From Nitrososphaerota archaeon (lineage in GTDB: Archaea > Thermoproteota > Nitrososphaeria > Nitrososphaerales > JACPRH01): a stretch of 64,000 nt of DNA. A program made the translations under genes and the position numbers. The stretch is taken from assembly GCA_023379805.1 (NCBI GenBank), contig JAMCPI010000016.1:72514-136513 (forward strand). The letters run 5' to 3'. Numbering within the stretch: position 1 is the first letter of the stretch; every line of letters begins with the position of its first letter. The notes under the pieces were generated by a model. That model was not told where the DNA came from. It did no database searches and saw nothing but the letters and a program-made list of their open reading frames with translations. Positions 9,977 to 48,719 of this stretch are shown in pieces.

Positions 9977-12238
9977 CTATGGTCGCCTTCGTGTCGCCAG
10001 AACTCCAGCTGCGATCACAGCTATGACAGCTATTCCGATTGCTGCGTAGGTGATTTCAGGCTGAAGACCGGTGGTCTCGGTAACGGATTGCGTAACAGTT
10101 TGAGTCTGTGCTGGCTCGGTAGCGGTTGATGTCACTGTCTTTGCTGAAGCAGTTGATACTACTGTTGTAGCTGATGTTGTAGTCACAGTCGTGGCTGAAG
10201 TGGTTATTGATGTGGATACTGAGGTTGATGTTGTTGTGGCGGTTGATGTTATAGTAGTTGCAGCAGCTGTAGTTGTGACTGTGGTTGTTTGCTGGGCTCC
10301 GCCCGGCGACCCTCCTGATACCCTGTCAGATAGTCCGATACCTATGACGGTGCCTGGCATCGACGGGACTATTGCGCTGGCGCCTGAGCCGACGATTGTG
10401 AATATCATTTGTTTGCCTTTGCTATCTTGTCCTGTTGTTACACCGATCTTCAAATCTGAGCCTAAGTTCATTTCATGTATTAGTTTGCCGCTGTTCTTGT
10501 CGAAGAACCTCATGTAGCCGTCTACGAAGCCGGTGAAGAGCAGAGTCGGGGTGACCAACATGTGGCTTCGCTGCTGAGCCACATCGTAGAACCACGTCCA
10601 TTTCACCTTGCCTGTAGCCGCATCTCTAGCGACTATTGTCGTGTTTGTTTTCGGATATTGTTTGGTTATTGAGACACTGCCACCTTCCTTCGGAGGGGGT
10701 GAGTCTACTAGTTGGGCTTGTAAGGCGGATGCGTAATGGTAGACTGTTTGAGTTCCAGGATCGTATGACATGTCTGTGGCGAAGATGCCGTTCAGGAAGT
10801 ATGGGTATAATTCACATGGTCTTCCACAGTAGGTGCTGTTGTCTGGTGAGAGCATTTCTCTCATGTCGTAGTGACTACTTATGTTAGTGAGATGGTAGCG
10901 AACACCGCCTTGATACGGCTCCTTCAATGCTGCTTGGCCGATTTGTCCCCAACTTACTTGCTCGTTGACAACGTCAACCACATAGTGGGGCTTGCCTGTA
11001 TTAGCGTCCATTACATACAGCCGTCCTTCTTTGCAGCCCTTCATGTAGACCTTGCCTAGTCCCTGAACATCTGCCAGTATGCCTCCCCAGTTGCAGTCAT
11101 AGTCGTAGGGATCACGCGGGAATGGCTGTAGCCACCAGACACGTTTGCCTGCGTTCAGGTCAATAGCCATTATTGTGCTGCCGTAGAGCCTTGGTCCGGG
11201 TGTAGCACCGACGTATGTGTAGGGTCCTTGGTTGCCTGTTTGGGTGTATAGGATGCCGGTTTCTTCATCAACTACCAGCTGTCCACCCCAGTTAGCTGTG
11301 ACACCGCCGTAGATACTTGGTGTCTGATCAGGCTGGGCCCAGTCCCATTCAAGGTTCTGAGGAACCTTTGCTGCTACTTCACTGCATGGAGTTGTTAGGA
11401 AGAAGCCTATGTTGCACTCTTGTAACGCCCAGTCTTTAGTGGGTTTGTCTTGTGGTGGGAAGCTGAAGACACGCCAGGTTATTTGTTTGGTATTCATATC
11501 GACACCCATCATAACGTGACGGGCATCGCCGTTGTAGATGTAGCTGTGCATGCTTCCAGGTAGAACGAAGATGAACTGGTTGCCGCTATCGTAGGTTCCG
11601 ACTCCGTCTTGACTTGCGGTTCCCTGTCTGTACTTGTACAGGTTGCCTGGGACATCCTTGCAGAGGTCTTTCACCCAGAAGGATGTTTTGCCGCTTGTAG
11701 CGTTGATGCCGTAGAAGTCGCAGGCCATGCCGTTTATTAGTAGTGCGTCGCCTTTTTCCCAATACTTTATTCCGTGTAGGTGTGCATTGAGGATACCTAG
11801 TGCGCCTGCATTGTTTGGAAGAAGCATCGGTAGCCTCTTCTCGATGTCTTGCTGGTTGATGGTATAATCGTGAACCCATTTCTGCTTGCCTGACGCGGCG
11901 TCGATGGCGTAGGTTCTTAGATAGTTTGTTGTGACGAATACTCTGCCGTTTCTGACAATTGGTGGAGTTGATGACCCTTCATTGATTGATAGGGCTTGGA
12001 TCGCTGAGGATGATTTGGATGCTAGTGGGAAGATCCACTTCACTTCGAGATTCTTGACGTTGTCGTTGTTGATTTGCGTCTGGGGACTGTAGTTCCAGCC
12101 CCAAGAGTTACCGTTCAAGTACTGCCAATCCTTTTCGGTGTTGGCGAGTGGTGCTGCATACGCGAAGCTTGTTGATATTATGCTGAGGATAAGGGATGCA
12201 AGAATAGTTATTCCTGACATTCTATTATTTTTTAGCAT
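9977..12238 (-). CDS. Cell-surface PQQ-type quinoprotein dehydrogenase
   Basis: A 753-residue protein. The N-terminal signal peptide (ITILASLILSIISTSFAYA) is followed by a beta-propeller typical of PQQ-dependent alcohol dehydrogenases, with repeated docking motifs such as NVKNLEVKWIF, YAIDAASGKQKWVH, LYVMDANTGK and ARDAATGKVKWTW. Residues about 655-720 are a Thr/Ser-rich linker and the end is a membrane helix plus RRRP, so the enzyme is displayed outside the cell on a stalk. Known relatives oxidise alcohols or sugars and pass electrons to cytochromes. Substrate and cofactor here are inferred. No PQQ synthesis genes are in the window. A BoxA at 12285-12293 gives a leader of about 25 bases. Confidence 0.88.
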   Translation of the reverse strand: MLKNNRMSGITILASLILSIISTSFAYAAPLANTEKDWQYLNGNSWGWNYSPQTQINNDNVKNLEVKWIFPLASKSSSAIQALSINEGSSTPPIVRNGRVFVTTNYLRTYAIDAASGKQKWVHDYTINQQDIEKRLPMLLPNNAGALGILNAHLHGIKYWEKGDALLINGMACDFYGINATSGKTSFWVKDLCKDVPGNLYKYRQGTASQDGVGTYDSGNQFIFVLPGSMHSYIYNGDARHVMMGVDMNTKQITWRVFSFPPQDKPTKDWALQECNIGFFLTTPCSEVAAKVPQNLEWDWAQPDQTPSIYGGVTANWGGQLVVDEETGILYTQTGNQGPYTYVGATPGPRLYGSTIMAIDLNAGKRVWWLQPFPRDPYDYDCNWGGILADVQGLGKVYMKGCKEGRLYVMDANTGKPHYVVDVVNEQVSWGQIGQAALKEPYQGGVRYHLTNISSHYDMREMLSPDNSTYCGRPCELYPYFLNGIFATDMSYDPGTQTVYHYASALQAQLVDSPPPKEGGSVSITKQYPKTNTTIVARDAATGKVKWTWFYDVAQQRSHMLVTPTLLFTGFVDGYMRFFDKNSGKLIHEMNLGSDLKIGVTTGQDSKGKQMIFTIVGSGASAIVPSMPGTVIGIGLSDRVSGGSPGGAQQTTTVTTTAAATTITSTATTTSTSVSTSITTSATTVTTTSATTVVSTASAKTVTSTATEPAQTQTVTQSVTETTGLQPEITYAAIGIAVIAVIAAGVLATRRRP

Positions 12239-39024: not shown

Positions 39025-39214
39025 TCCCGCAGTGATTGTTAACTGCCTATACCATCGAGAGATGTACCTTGATTTTGAGATGGATGATGCTGTCGGGATC
39101 GCTGTACAAACTGAACCGTGACGCGGATAAAAGGAATCGGCATATGCATTTCCAATATAGCAACCTAATTCATTCACTATGTGAAGATTCTTGAATCGAA
39201 TCTGGAGGAGTCGT

Positions 39215-40384
39215 ATGTATGCAACTAGTCCCTTTAAATCTAGCAATGCCTATGCTGTTAACATTAGTATAGCGGTCATTTTGTCGGGCATAATTGTTCC
39301 GTCAAATGTTGTAATGAACGCGGTGGCAGCGTCAAACTTCGCTATAACTCCGATGCGTCTCGGCACACATCATGTTCCTGAGGGATCAGGTATAGTGGCC
39401 TCTAGAACGTATCCTGGGATTTATTGGATGATATCTGACTCAGGTAATCCGGCGCATCTCTATGCAATTGATAAATCTGGAGCAACTAAAGGTGTCTTCA
39501 AAGTGTCAGGGGCGACTAATCGTGATTGGGAGGACATTGCCATTGATGGAAGTGGTCACATATGGATAGGCGACATAGGTGACAACAGTAAGGTCTACAG
39601 TAGCTACATTGTTTACAAGGTTAACGAGCCAAATCCTTACGACAGTGCAACAAGTACTTCAGCAGCGACCGCTTACAGGTTCGTCTACCCTGACGGGGCG
39701 CATGATGCTGAGGCTCTTTTCGTCTGGCAGGGCACGCCATACATAGTGCAGAAGAACTGGGCTTCAGAGGTTTACGCCTTTCCTACCTTAGATTCGTCAC
39801 GAATTGTTGCGCTGAAGTACGTAGGTAAGTTTGCTGGAGGCAATGCGATTACAGGTGCCGATATATCAACTGATGGACATCGGCTTGCCTTGATTAATGA
39901 TAATTACAATTATCACTGGATAATCGAGCGAAGCGCAACCTCCACCAACGTAACCGACTTCTTCACTTCACCCACTAAGCAGTGGCGTATCTACTACTCC
40001 AACCAGCAGGGCGAAGCAATAGGCTTCTCAGAGGGGTCTGGCTTCGTCGTAGCAAGCGAGCAAGGAGGTTTCTGGAAGGTTGATCGAGACATGTATGACG
40101 AAACCTCAGACTCGCCTAAAACACCTGCATCCATATCGGGCAAGTACACCTTAGCTTGGGGTACATATGATTACGGTAATGCCCGCGACGTGACCGTTCT
40201 TCCCCAAGAAGAGATTCCTAGCAACTCAAACATTCGGGTTCGTGCACACTTGGATATTTCACCATACGTAGTTAACGGACAAAACACTGTTACATTCCGA
40301 CAGAACTGCATAATCCACAGTAATTCCGCAGCTCACTATCAATGGGATAGCCCCCGAATTATCTCGCTTACAAATTTAGGGTAA
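39215..40384 (+). CDS. Secreted beta-propeller-like surface protein
   Basis: About 389 residues. ATG 39215 gives a signal-like hydrophobic helix (VNISIAVILSGIIVPSNVVM) and then repeated beta elements such as GIYWMISDSGNP, WEDIAIDGSGHIWIGDIGDN and AIGFSEGSGFVVASEQGGFW, which suggest an NHL- or esterase-like propeller. The C-terminus (HLDISPYVVNGQNTVTFRQN) matches the beta domain repeated twice in the 1058-residue protein at 43913-47089. It has no membrane anchor at the C-terminus. Role unknown, probably glycan or surface binding. Confidence 0.72.
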   Translation: MYATSPFKSSNAYAVNISIAVILSGIIVPSNVVMNAVAASNFAITPMRLGTHHVPEGSGIVASRTYPGIYWMISDSGNPAHLYAIDKSGATKGVFKVSGATNRDWEDIAIDGSGHIWIGDIGDNSKVYSSYIVYKVNEPNPYDSATSTSAATAYRFVYPDGAHDAEALFVWQGTPYIVQKNWASEVYAFPTLDSSRIVALKYVGKFAGGNAITGADISTDGHRLALINDNYNYHWIIERSATSTNVTDFFTSPTKQWRIYYSNQQGEAIGFSEGSGFVVASEQGGFWKVDRDMYDETSDSPKTPASISGKYTLAWGTYDYGNARDVTVLPQEEIPSNSNIRVRAHLDISPYVVNGQNTVTFRQNCIIHSNSAAHYQWDSPRIISLTNLG

Positions 40385-43912: not shown

Positions 43913-46900
43913 TTAGGCAGTCCACGAGTTTATAGGGGTTTTCTCTTCTTTGGAGTAAACCTGTGCAGTCGAAGTTGAGGTAAGTGGGCTTAGAAGCAGA
44001 GTGCTAAACGTTGTGTTGCTAGTGTTCGGGGCTAATCCAATTGAACTAGTTGTGCTTGACGTGTTGCTTGTCATTAGTAATGTAGTGGCGCTTGGGTTTT
44101 TGTTGAATGTCCATGCTGCATGCATTGGTGCTCCGGTTTGGTCGTAGATCTGGACTGTGACTGTACTTCCTGAGACTGTTACTAGTGCGAAACCGTAGTT
44201 GGGGGTGCACCAGTCTGCTCTCGATAAGCAGCCGTAGAGAGGTGCGCCTGCAGCGCCCACGATGAACTCCTCATACGCACGGTTTGTGTTGACACCGGAT
44301 ATCCTGCTGCTATCAATGTGCGCGTAGGCTGTTATGTGCTCATGGCCGTGGAAGACAGCCATGATGGAGGGATGTGCATTAGTGATTGTTGTCCATTGTG
44401 CTGGAGGAATAGCTGGTGGAGAGCAGTGACTATCAGAGTCACAGTAGACGGGAGCGTGCCACTCAAGGAAGGTGAGTATGCATCCAGTACCGCCGCAACC
44501 AGTTCTTTCTGCAGTAGTGAGGTCTGCATCCAGCCAGTTCAGCTGATCTGCGCTGGGTCTTGTTGAGCTGACATCATTTATTACTGTCATTCCGACGAAG
44601 TGGCTGTTGCCATAGTCGAATGAGAAGTCAAGCCCATCTTGACCTGGACGGTAGTTATAGTTTGTTCCACCGAACGAAGCTACGATTGCTCTTATGTTGA
44701 AGCTGCTTAGCCACAACGCGGTGTCTCCGGCATCATGGTTACCCATAACAGGCACTGTTTTTGTGACCAAGTTGCTGTTCACTATGCTCTTCCAGACTGA
44801 GGGACAGTTGCTCTGGCTGAAGTCATAGCATAGGTCCCCTGTGAAGAGCTGGAAGGCAGGATTGAAGCTGTTCGCGGTGTTTGAGAGTTGAGACAGCACA
44901 TCCGTATTCACAGGCTGGCTTGCACTATTCCCCCGACTATCCCCCATAACAACGAACTTGAACGACGCCGCAGCTGTAGCAGTAGTGGTAGTAGTCGTAG
45001 TACTAGTGGTTGTTGTGGTGGTTGCTGTTGTTGTTAGGTCTTTGATCCATGTGCCTGTTGTTGAGCTGCTCCAGTAGATTATGCCTACGACGTTTTGTGC
45101 TTGGAAGAGTTTGATGCTGTTTTGTATCCATTGGTCGTCTAGGCCTCCGGCGGTGTTTCCGTATATGTTTCCGAACTCTCCTACCTCGAACAGCTGGTTG
45201 GGATATTTCTGCTGCGCCTGAGCGATTTGCAGCGGAACCGAGGAGCATTGTGATCCGGTGCGTCCGGTGCTGCCCCAGTAGCCTTGCAGAGTCGCCAGAT
45301 CAGCCCAGCATGCTGCCCAGGTGCCTGAGCTTGTCTTGTACTCGGCGCGGTACCAGTGGACTGAGCTGATTATCTTCGGATCGTTGAAGGATACGAAGTT
45401 GGAGTAATACTCAAACATCGGAGCCTCCTCCGCAATTATGATACGGTTGTCCCCATTACTTCTCAGTGCCTGTGCTATTTCTGCGATGCGTTGATGCCAT
45501 CCTGTCCGTATGCTGGAGCTTACTGTTGATGAGGTGTAGCTGCAGTAGGTGGGCTCGTTCATCACGTCGAAGCCTATCACCCGTGGGTTGCTGCGGGTTA
45601 GCTGAGATATTTTCAGCAGCAGGTTCGTTAGATGCGCAGCCCCAGTTGTTCCGTCGGTGAGAATTGATGTGGTGTAGAAGTTTGTGCTGAAGTCGCTTGC
45701 GTAGGAGTTGGCTGGTGCGCAGTACTGTGAGCCCAAAAAGTTGTTAAGGTTCTGCGCGTGTGAAGCGGTGTCTGAGTCGGCGTGTATCTTGACTACGACG
45801 TTTATTCCCTGCTGAGTCAACGCGTTTATCTGATCCATCATGTTCTGCATCGCAGCGCTATCGTAGGTGAATACCGAGGGGCTCGCACTCGTCTCAAGAG
45901 ATCCCCACTCCTTCACCAGCTTAACGGTGTTGAAGCCCGCGCTCTTAATGTTCAAAGCATCAGTAGCATAATTACCTGATATGAAGTTCTCAGGAATATC
46001 ACCATAGTTCAACCCAACCATAGTGAACCTGCCACCCGTCGACGTATCAACCAACCCACCATTAACAACATCAACAGCATAAGCGGTTACCTGTACTCCT
46101 GACTGAGAGGTTGTAGTAGTGGTAGAAGTAACAGCAGTAGTAGTGGTGGTAGACGTAGAGGTTGTAGTTTGAGTGGTGGTTGTAGATGCAGGGACGGCGG
46201 TGGTATTAGTAGTGGTTGTAGTTGTGGTTGCTTGGGAAACAGTGAAGCTGTAGCTTACTGAGCTTGTTCCACCTACCCATATGTCGTGGTAGGTACTGTC
46301 ACTCAGCAATACTCCCGTAGGGCCAGTTACTTGGACATTCTTTACTCCAGAGGAGTAGATGTTCTGACGGAAAGTAATTGCATTACTTCCAGATACTGCA
46401 TACTTGGATATGTCGAGTGAGAAGCTTGCAAATACGTTGTTGTTGTTAGAAGACTCCACTGCAGGTAAAGTGGCTGCTACTTGACTGTTGACGAGTATAG
46501 AGACTTCGCCCTTGTTGTCGTAGTCGTAGCCTTGCCAAGACAGAGTATAGGTTGATCCGCTAGGTGTAGAGTTTGTAGTGGTTGAAGTTGTGGTAGTAGT
46601 GGTTGTTGAGGTTGTGGTTGTAGTTGTGGTTGCTTGGGAAACAGTGAAGCTGTAGCTTACTGAGCTTGTTCCACCTACCCATATGTCGTGGTAGGTACTG
46701 TCACTCAGCAATACTCCCGTAGGGCCAGTTACTTGGACATTCTTTACTCCAGAGGAGTAGATGTTCTGACGGAAAGTAATTGCATTAGCGCCAGATACAA
46801 CATATTTAGATATGTCCAGCGTTACACTGATGAATACTTTTGCGTTTTGCGGCGAGTAACTTGACGGCAGCGTAGCTACAACTTGGTTGTTGACAAGCAC

Positions 46901-47089
46901 GGACACTTCGCCCTTGTTGTTGTAGTCATACCCTTGAAAAGTCAGGGTATAGACCTGCGAAGTGCTTGTAGTCGCTGCTGCGGCCGAACCCAGCACAAAA
47001 CCGGTCGATATAGTACTTCCTGTTGGAAGCAATAGGCTGAGCACCAATAGTGATGCTAGCGTTCTTCTTAGGTTATGTTGTTCACTCAT
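43913..47089 (-). CDS. Giant surface protein: two beta domains, GH5-like glycosidase, metallophosphoesterase
   Basis: A 1058-residue secreted protein. A signal peptide (LASLLVLSLLLPTGSTIS) is followed by two related beta domains (about residues 45-155 and 176-290) separated and followed by Thr-rich linkers. A GH5-like TIM barrel (about 335-690) has the acid/base Glu in DVMNEPT near 512 and the nucleophile Glu in VGEFGN near 637. After another Thr linker comes a calcineurin-like phosphoesterase (about 715-990) with VVMGDSRGN, FTGDLC, GNHDAG and FHGHEH. The end is Thr/Ser-rich without a clear membrane helix. It should act outside the cell on glycans and a phosphoester. I do not know this domain combination from described enzymes. 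Confidence 0.88.
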   Translation of the reverse strand: MSEQHNLRRTLASLLVLSLLLPTGSTISTGFVLGSAAAATTSTSQVYTLTFQGYDYNNKGEVSVLVNNQVVATLPSSYSPQNAKVFISVTLDISKYVVSGANAITFRQNIYSSGVKNVQVTGPTGVLLSDSTYHDIWVGGTSSVSYSFTVSQATTTTTTTSTTTTTTTSTTTNSTPSGSTYTLSWQGYDYDNKGEVSILVNSQVAATLPAVESSNNNNVFASFSLDISKYAVSGSNAITFRQNIYSSGVKNVQVTGPTGVLLSDSTYHDIWVGGTSSVSYSFTVSQATTTTTTTNTTAVPASTTTTQTTTSTSTTTTTAVTSTTTTTSQSGVQVTAYAVDVVNGGLVDTSTGGRFTMVGLNYGDIPENFISGNYATDALNIKSAGFNTVKLVKEWGSLETSASPSVFTYDSAAMQNMMDQINALTQQGINVVVKIHADSDTASHAQNLNNFLGSQYCAPANSYASDFSTNFYTTSILTDGTTGAAHLTNLLLKISQLTRSNPRVIGFDVMNEPTYCSYTSSTVSSSIRTGWHQRIAEIAQALRSNGDNRIIIAEEAPMFEYYSNFVSFNDPKIISSVHWYRAEYKTSSGTWAACWADLATLQGYWGSTGRTGSQCSSVPLQIAQAQQKYPNQLFEVGEFGNIYGNTAGGLDDQWIQNSIKLFQAQNVVGIIYWSSSTTGTWIKDLTTTATTTTTTSTTTTTTTATAAASFKFVVMGDSRGNSASQPVNTDVLSQLSNTANSFNPAFQLFTGDLCYDFSQSNCPSVWKSIVNSNLVTKTVPVMGNHDAGDTALWLSSFNIRAIVASFGGTNYNYRPGQDGLDFSFDYGNSHFVGMTVINDVSSTRPSADQLNWLDADLTTAERTGCGGTGCILTFLEWHAPVYCDSDSHCSPPAIPPAQWTTITNAHPSIMAVFHGHEHITAYAHIDSSRISGVNTNRAYEEFIVGAAGAPLYGCLSRADWCTPNYGFALVTVSGSTVTVQIYDQTGAPMHAAWTFNKNPSATTLLMTSNTSSTTSSIGLAPNTSNTTFSTLLLSPLTSTSTAQVYSKEEKTPINSWTA
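46212..46385 (+). repeat. 174-bp exact direct repeat, copy 1
   Basis: Bases 46212-46385 are identical to 46614-46787 (offset 402). The repeat covers the C-terminal half of the beta domain and the beginning of the Thr-rich linker in the giant surface gene. Confidence 0.95.
46614..46787 (+). repeat. 174-bp exact direct repeat, copy 2
   Basis: Identical to 46212-46385. The sequences on both sides diverge, so recent gene conversion or partial duplication is more likely than a simple whole-domain copy. Confidence 0.95.
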
Positions 47090-47630: not shown

Positions 47631-48719
47631 ATGAATAGAAAATCGTTAGCGATCCTTTCACTACTAATCGCAGTATCAACCGTACTATTACTGAATACAG
47701 CGTACTCATTCGTAAATGGAGCAGTAGGATACTCAGGCAATCCCGCTACACATGGCGGCGCAATCTGTACCAACTGCCATGACGGAGGTATCGTGCCTAG
47801 CGTTACGCTCGTTGGCCCAGCAAATGTAACTGTTGGATCAACCCATAATTACACTCTAGTAATTGGCGTAGCCCAAGCCTTCGGTGCTCTAGACGTCTCA
47901 GTGACTGGAGGAACGCTAAATGCGACACAAAACGGAACTCAGGTTCGCTCAGGCGAACTAGTACAAACGATGCGAAGACCAGCAAACTCGTTCGGCATCG
48001 TTGAGTTCGGATTTAACTGGACAGCACCAGCTACAGTAAGCAATGTCACCATGTACGCAGCAGGAAACTCCGTCAACGGTGACGGCGACACAACAGGTGA
48101 TAACGCCAACAAGACCAAACTCATAATAAAAGTTCTAGCCCCAACAACCACTAACACTACCACTACCACCACTACTAACACCACCACAACTACAACTACG
48201 AATACCACTACCACCACAACAAACACTACGACAACTACGACCCGAACAAACACTACCACACCTTTAGCAAACACTACTACAGTTACTGTAACTTCAACTG
48301 TGACTTTACCGCCAACTACAGTTACAACAACCGTTACTAGCGCACCAACCACTGTCACGACCACTCGTACGGTTACTCAGACCACAACCGTAACAACTAC
48401 AGTAACTCAACCAGCCAGTACCACTACCAGCACTAAGACAGTAACATCAACTACTACCGAAACTAGAACTGTAACTAAAACAACTACTAAAACCGTAACT
48501 ATCCACGACCACGGAAAAACGCTTTACAAGAATCTATGCGCCTCTTGCCACGGGTCAGATGCACGAGGCGGAGCAGTCCATCAAAGTGTCGTAGATGCAT
48601 CCTCTAGTGAAATCAAGGAAGCAATACAAGAAGAACAGAAGATGAAGTTCCTCAAATTCCTGTCAAATAACGCCATCTCCGAAATCAGCAACTACCTCAA
48701 ATCACTAGGAGACTCATAG
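47631..48719 (+). CDS. Surface c-type cytochrome with two haem motifs and Thr-rich linker
   Basis: A 362-residue secreted protein. A signal peptide (LAILSLLIAVSTVLLLNTA) is followed at residues 46-50 by CTNCH in a beta domain (about 50-175, like Reeler/choice-of-anchor haem domains). Residues about 185-290 are almost pure Thr/Val linker. The C-terminus is a small cytochrome c domain with CASCH at 303-307 and a likely Met ligand near 338. Each CxxCH should bind a covalent haem. Its job is probably electron transfer at or beyond the cell surface, perhaps serving the quinoprotein at 9977-12238, although the two genes are far apart. There is no C-terminal membrane anchor. Confidence 0.85.
   Translation: MNRKSLAILSLLIAVSTVLLLNTAYSFVNGAVGYSGNPATHGGAICTNCHDGGIVPSVTLVGPANVTVGSTHNYTLVIGVAQAFGALDVSVTGGTLNATQNGTQVRSGELVQTMRRPANSFGIVEFGFNWTAPATVSNVTMYAAGNSVNGDGDTTGDNANKTKLIIKVLAPTTTNTTTTTTTNTTTTTTTNTTTTTTNTTTTTTRTNTTTPLANTTTVTVTSTVTLPPTTVTTTVTSAPTTVTTTRTVTQTTTVTTTVTQPASTTTSTKTVTSTTTETRTVTKTTTKTVTIHDHGKTLYKNLCASCHGSDARGGAVHQSVVDASSSEIKEAIQEEQKMKFLKFLSNNAISEISNYLKSLGDS

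Follow-up and report, generated by a model that had tools for sequence, protein, structure and literature searches.

A predicted secreted GH5-metallophosphoesterase fusion in an uncultured Nitrososphaerota archaeon, with evidence for module exchange at a Thr-rich linker

Introduction

Secreted enzymes that combine two catalytic domains with accessory modules are known among bifunctional CAZymes, for example the xylanase-glucuronoyl esterase CkXyn10C-GE15A (PMC8280721). Metallophosphoesterase (MPE) domains of family PF00149 occur in plant and mammalian purple acid phosphatases and, joined to a sugar-binding-type module, in the discoidin (F5/8C)-MPE proteins of Streptomyces and Kitasatospora plasmids. 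Marine heterotrophic thaumarchaea have been reported to lack glycoside hydrolases (PMC7300363).

Here, we describe a protein encoded in a 64,000-nucleotide stretch of DNA (the window; contig JAMCPI010000016.1, positions 72,514 to 136,513) from a Nitrososphaerota archaeon, in which two copies of a module that we call B precede a GH5 glycosidase domain and an MPE. Like CkXyn10C-GE15A, it has two catalytic domains, accessory modules and predicted secretion, but it differs in having a phosphoesterase as its second enzyme, a B module that falls outside recognised CBM families, and an archaeal host. Its likeness to the discoidin-MPE proteins is confined to the MPE (29% identity), as those proteins are without GH5 and carry a binding module unrelated to B. 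Each catalytic family is already known; a limited search of the open-access literature found no description of a GH5-metallophosphoesterase enzyme or of this domain order, and the fusion thus appears to be without an earlier report, as an initial annotation of this DNA had supposed.

Results

Layout of the gene

The gene (43913..47089, minus strand) is an ATG-initiated ORF of 1058 amino acids with zero internal stops, and the ORF, Pfam matches and residue map together describe a predicted secreted modular protein of the order signal-B-B-GH5-MPE. All of its parts lie on the minus strand. The signal peptide region (residues 1-38, 46976..47089) has its hydrophobic core at about residues 14-33, the hydropathy maximum, and is followed by B module 1 (residues 39-152, 46634..46975; phmmer against genus proteins, alignment and AF2 model) and B module 2 (residues 175-286, 46232..46567; phmmer, alignment and repeat to the first copy). 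The residue map places a Thr-rich linker at residues 287-333 (46091..46231), with 28 of 47 residues Thr, and a C-terminal Ser/Thr tail without a membrane anchor at residues 1004-1058 (43916..44080); the linkers of the protein are 60-77% Thr. The intact reading frame and these linkers bear out the original description of a single-gene fusion. The product had also been called a surface protein, and here only export is supported, its natural reading from the sequence: the surface anchor is unproven, since the single hydrophobic stretch in a Kyte-Doolittle scan of the 1058 residues is the N-terminal signal-like one, with no TM-like segment beyond the signal region that could form a C-terminal membrane anchor.

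The two catalytic domains

Both enzyme families proposed initially were recovered in Pfam above the gathering score. The GH5 domain (residues 334-690, 45020..46090), delimited by Pfam, PDB profile matches, alignment and the residue map, matches PF00150 over residues 373-676 (E 3.8e-18, 66.4 bits vs a gathering score of 23.5). Its MNEP motif holds N511 and the acid/base E512 (45554-45556), and its GEFG motif the nucleophile E638 (45176-45178); both glutamates are invariant in the alignment of 7 genus GH5 copies. In common with known GH5 enzymes, every copy has NEP with the acid/base, the HxY motif, the nucleophile E and the W. Further active-site residues of the window copy (H436, N511, H578, Y580, W673) are also present, and these H, N, H, Y and W are kept by all 7. 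One conserved GH5 residue is changed, Lys390 standing where the 'VRL' strand normally has Arg, with Lys also found in 4 of 6 relatives (5 of 7 genus copies). A profile of the 7 copies matches solved endoglucanases and endoglycoceramidases in the PDB, and because the matches spread over both, a substrate or subfamily cannot be named.

The MPE domain (residues 701-1003, 44081..44989; Pfam, alignments, AF2 model and PDB fold match) matches PF00149 over residues 711-919 (E 3.7e-7, 31.2 bits vs a gathering score of 21.5). Its motifs are GDSRG (D717), GDLCY (D752/Y755), GNHD (N784/H785), WHAP (H878) and GHEH (H916/H918), and the di-metal ligands D, D, N, H, H, H are invariant in 6 of 6 genus MPE copies and in distant homologues. 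The early reading that catalytic residues are kept thus stands for MNEP, GEFG, GDSRG, GNHD and GHEH, and needs amending for the one conserved GH5 Arg. GNHD is intact in the window copy, whereas 2 of the 6 genus copies (C7 and C12 of the same genome) have GNRD. These GNRD paralogues (L015:5325-6221, L016:5858-6757) keep the metal ligands, and their catalysis is possibly altered or lost.

A PDB sequence-profile search with the MPE gave no match, so a fold search was used instead. The AF2 model (pLDDT 76) had as its top Foldseek matches the purple acid phosphatases 3zk4, 1xzw and 4dsy (E 1e-12 to 1e-11, TM about 0.65), and on these best matches the fold is predicted to be purple-acid-phosphatase-like. 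The domain has in common with the plant and mammalian enzymes the Pfam family, the predicted fold, GDxxY, GNHD, H and GHxH; it differs by its motif I, GDSR vs GDxG, and by having no match at E<=1 to the purple acid phosphatase N-terminal domain PF16656 in Pfam. Small purple acid phosphatases are also without PF16656, so its absence bears on large plant-type enzymes only. In the same genome, Pfam does call PF16656 in L043, which is likewise a Thr-linked protein. The Tyr ligand of GDLCY, Y755, is present in the window copy and absent from the C43 copy of the genus-mate described below and from most distant homologues.

The B module and its partners

The two beta domains noted at the N-terminus in the initial annotation are both there, and they turn out to be copies of one module, B, of ~110 residues. 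Codons 235-292 or thereabouts in B2 repeat codons 101-158 of B1 exactly over 174 nt (about 46213-46789), which points to a duplication or conversion in recent times; the repeat may alternatively be an assembly-sensitive spot. The AF2 model of B (pLDDT 86) is nearly all beta. B alone has no convincing Pfam match, and its PDB matches are weak, including BcsB and CBM35/36/60, the latter fold matches being non-significant (E>=0.01). We infer a CBM-like, glycan-binding role for B, tentatively given the weakness of these matches.

We compared the genome of origin (G000; 17 contigs, MAG-type) with its genus-mate in JACPRH, 'Thaumarchaeota archaeon NC_groundwater_674' (G001). G000 has 15 copies of B and G001 has 33; none of 99 other relatives in an order-level set has any. 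The same 99 genomes yielded no GH5 of this genus and, bar one marginal match at 27% identity, none of its MPE. Across the two species, B is combined with GH5, MPE, PF04185, PHP-like, beta-helix, propeller and PEGA modules, phosphoesterase-like modules recurring among these partners, and modules are reshuffled over at least 16 proteins. Layouts in G000, besides the B-B-GH5-MPE of the window, are GH5 alone, propeller-B-MPE-B, B-B-MPE-B-PEGA-like-B, B-B-MPE, propeller-B, PEGA-array-B and B with an unknown domain. Those of G001 include, with GH5, B-B-GH5-B-PF04185, GH5 alone, propeller-GH5, propeller-(PEGA/B)n-GH5 and PEGA-GH5, and without it propeller-B-B-MPE-B, MPE alone, B-B-B with a PHP-like domain, beta-helix-B-B and others. 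The PHP-like case (G001 L084:743-3112; PF02811 below cut-off) adds another phosphoesterase-type fold to the partners of B. No PF04185 module was found in G000.

Origin of the fusion

The nearest relatives of the two catalytic domains lie in different G001 proteins: the GH5 is closest to that of C12 (83% protein identity), in the B-B-GH5-B-PF04185 layout, and the MPE to that of C33 (85%), in propeller-B-B-MPE-B, the nearest MPE paralogue in G000 being 81% identical. The C12 gene (JACPRH010000006.1) is orthologous to the window gene and colinear with it through GH5 into the linker that follows, with continuous DNA homology from 78 nt ahead of the ATG to codon ~702 at 78% identity; beyond this, it has a B module and a PF04185 phosphoesterase where the window protein has its MPE. 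DNA homology to the C33 gene runs from codon 685 to 999. In the DNA alignments, the two tracts overlap solely in the GH5-MPE Thr linker, codons 685-702 (44984..45037), where homology to the GH5-PF04185 orthologue stops and homology to the MPE protein starts. Because the tracts meet only there, these alignments show a module exchange as the origin of the fusion: one of the two lineages swapped its C-terminal catalytic unit, with a breakpoint in or next to the Thr-codon tract. Beyond the second enzyme, homology between the tails of the window gene and its G001 orthologue is not supported (613 of 2000 shuffles were equally good).

The fusion is found in none of 398 sampled genomes of the phylum, so the domain order that the initial annotation proposed to look for in other genomes is not seen there; GH5 and MPE profile matches fall in different genomes, the genome of origin excepted. 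It was also absent from the plasmids searched. The GH5-MPE pairing is not conserved: of the two species sequenced for this genus, one has it, in a single protein, and the orthologue in the other has PF04185 in place of the MPE. Viral origin or carriage was considered and set aside, as MPE, GH5 and B were without relatives in IMG/VR scans and GH5-MPE is absent from phage records.

In a multi-contig MAG-type assembly and at a low-complexity linker, the joint could in principle be a chimaeric join between separate GH5 and MPE genes, the outcome that the initial annotation had named as counting against it. Misassembly is nonetheless unlikely at the sequence level, since no exact repeat >26 nt is shared at the joint with the paralogue loci fetched from the same genome, the linker's best matches elsewhere in the genome span just about 36-65 nt at 73-87% identity, and the 81% identity to the nearest paralogue leaves the window MPE differing by 19% in protein from that copy. 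The orthologue, moreover, likewise continues as a multi-module protein after GH5, and we consider a chimaera highly improbable.

Genomic setting and host

The gene sits at the edge of a surface-glycan biosynthesis cluster of roughly 20 kb on the plus strand (about 22-43 kb; 21999-43772). The cluster encodes a DegT aminotransferase, a Wzx-like flippase, a MocA-type oxidoreductase, several glycosyltransferases, and deacetylase-like and PF01663 phosphodiesterase-like proteins, along with sequences that by eye look nucleotidyltransferase-like or of hexapeptide type; interspersed with the glycosyltransferases are also a thymidylate-kinase-like protein and a PfkB kinase. Within the cluster, phmmer against genus proteins identifies a relative with propeller module E and a partial B module (39191..40384, plus strand), perhaps a member of the propeller-B-MPE-B family that has degenerated. 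We do not claim module E as a phytase-type phosphoesterase, its Pfam match to Phytase-like PF13449 being weak and below cut-off. On the other side, the neighbour at 47631-48719 is a Thr-rich exported protein with a C-terminal cytochrome-c-like domain (PF13442), and a Val-rich ORF antisense to its Thr-rich tract (47939-48364) is almost surely a coding artefact.

Neither G000 nor the 4 other genomes of its family yielded AmoA, which is carried by 7 of the 25 genomes searched, and the window encodes a PQQ-dependent dehydrogenase at 9977-12238. This combination is in line with a heterotrophic host, a groundwater archaeon that would not oxidise ammonia. Next to B proteins (L016, L017) lie other PQQ-dehydrogenase-like proteins, which carry Thr linkers and an anchor at the C-terminus.

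Discussion

Sequence comparison supports the domain identities, the intact catalytic motifs and a module exchange with its breakpoint in the GH5-MPE Thr linker. For the function of the protein, the reading that we favour, at a probability of about 0.55, is that it represents one combination among the secreted modular hydrolases of a CAZyme-like, lineage-specific kit that serves the release of sugar and phosphate, each member being built from the shared beta-sandwich B, Thr-rich linkers and interchangeable catalytic modules. Once exported, the protein would be held on a glycan or cell surface by its two B modules; GH5 would cut a beta-glycoside by a retaining mechanism, with E512 as acid/base and E638 as nucleophile, and the di-metal MPE would remove phosphate from nearby phosphoesters. 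Placing both enzymes together would help a thaumarchaeon that does not oxidise ammonia to scavenge carbon and phosphorus, and the two activities need not fall on the same molecule. The existence in Streptomyces of an MPE joined to a glycan-binding-type module, discoidin, speaks for such a kit; the Lys at the conserved GH5 Arg position speaks against it, as does the adjoining glycan-biosynthesis cluster, which would equally suit an enzyme that remodels or turns over the surface polysaccharide made by the archaeon itself. That neighbourhood, with its own propeller-B protein, makes self-remodelling a serious and fair rival, but the gene lies on the strand opposite to the cluster, its G001 orthologue shares none of its neighbours in the 16 kb examined, and a GH5-only paralogue pair stands outside any such cluster in the loci read, all of which leave self-remodelling doubtful.

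The initial annotation had gone further and suggested a dedicated phosphoglycan enzyme, GH5 and phosphoesterase acting in sequence on one phosphorylated polymer, with teichoic-acid- or phosphomannan-like polymers as possible substrates. Part of this finds an echo in the orthologues, both of which place a phosphoesterase C-terminal to GH5, in unrelated folds (MPE and PF04185), which could reflect convergent selection, and the window MPE keeps its motifs although others of the genus have GNRD. The suggestion, however, takes the fusion as a selected unit, and the modules mix freely: each genome has a single such pairing, GH5 is also found by itself or next to propeller or PEGA modules, 3 other proteins of G000 and 2 of G001 have an MPE but no GH5, and no phosphoglycan-specific family is involved. 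A shared phosphoglycan substrate is therefore a conjecture that conservation does not back, and we judge it unlikely. Such free mixing, the 174-nt duplication or conversion within B and a breakpoint inside a linker would also fit a recombination accident at repetitive Thr linkers in which one domain contributes little; the intact ORF and the retention of motifs in both domains at 15-17% divergence from their relatives argue against neutral shuffling of this kind, which we consider rather improbable. Returning to the kit, a bolder and at present speculative form of it would be cellulosome-like without scaffoldins, the lineage-specific beta-sandwich and Thr-codon linkers serving as a recombination platform on which a glycosidase and unrelated phosphoesterases are repeatedly exchanged, yielding bifunctional phosphoglycan-degrading enzymes.

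The clearer result is the evolutionary one, as two related genomes catch the swap of a catalytic module with its breakpoint narrowed to an 18-codon Thr linker. The GH5-phosphoesterase fusion offers a testable candidate for joint release of sugar and phosphate. More broadly, an uncultured thaumarchaeal genus without AmoA would gain a repertoire of secreted hydrolases, in contrast to the marine heterotrophic thaumarchaea (PMC7300363), a comparison that we draw as a contrast and not as a claim of kinship.
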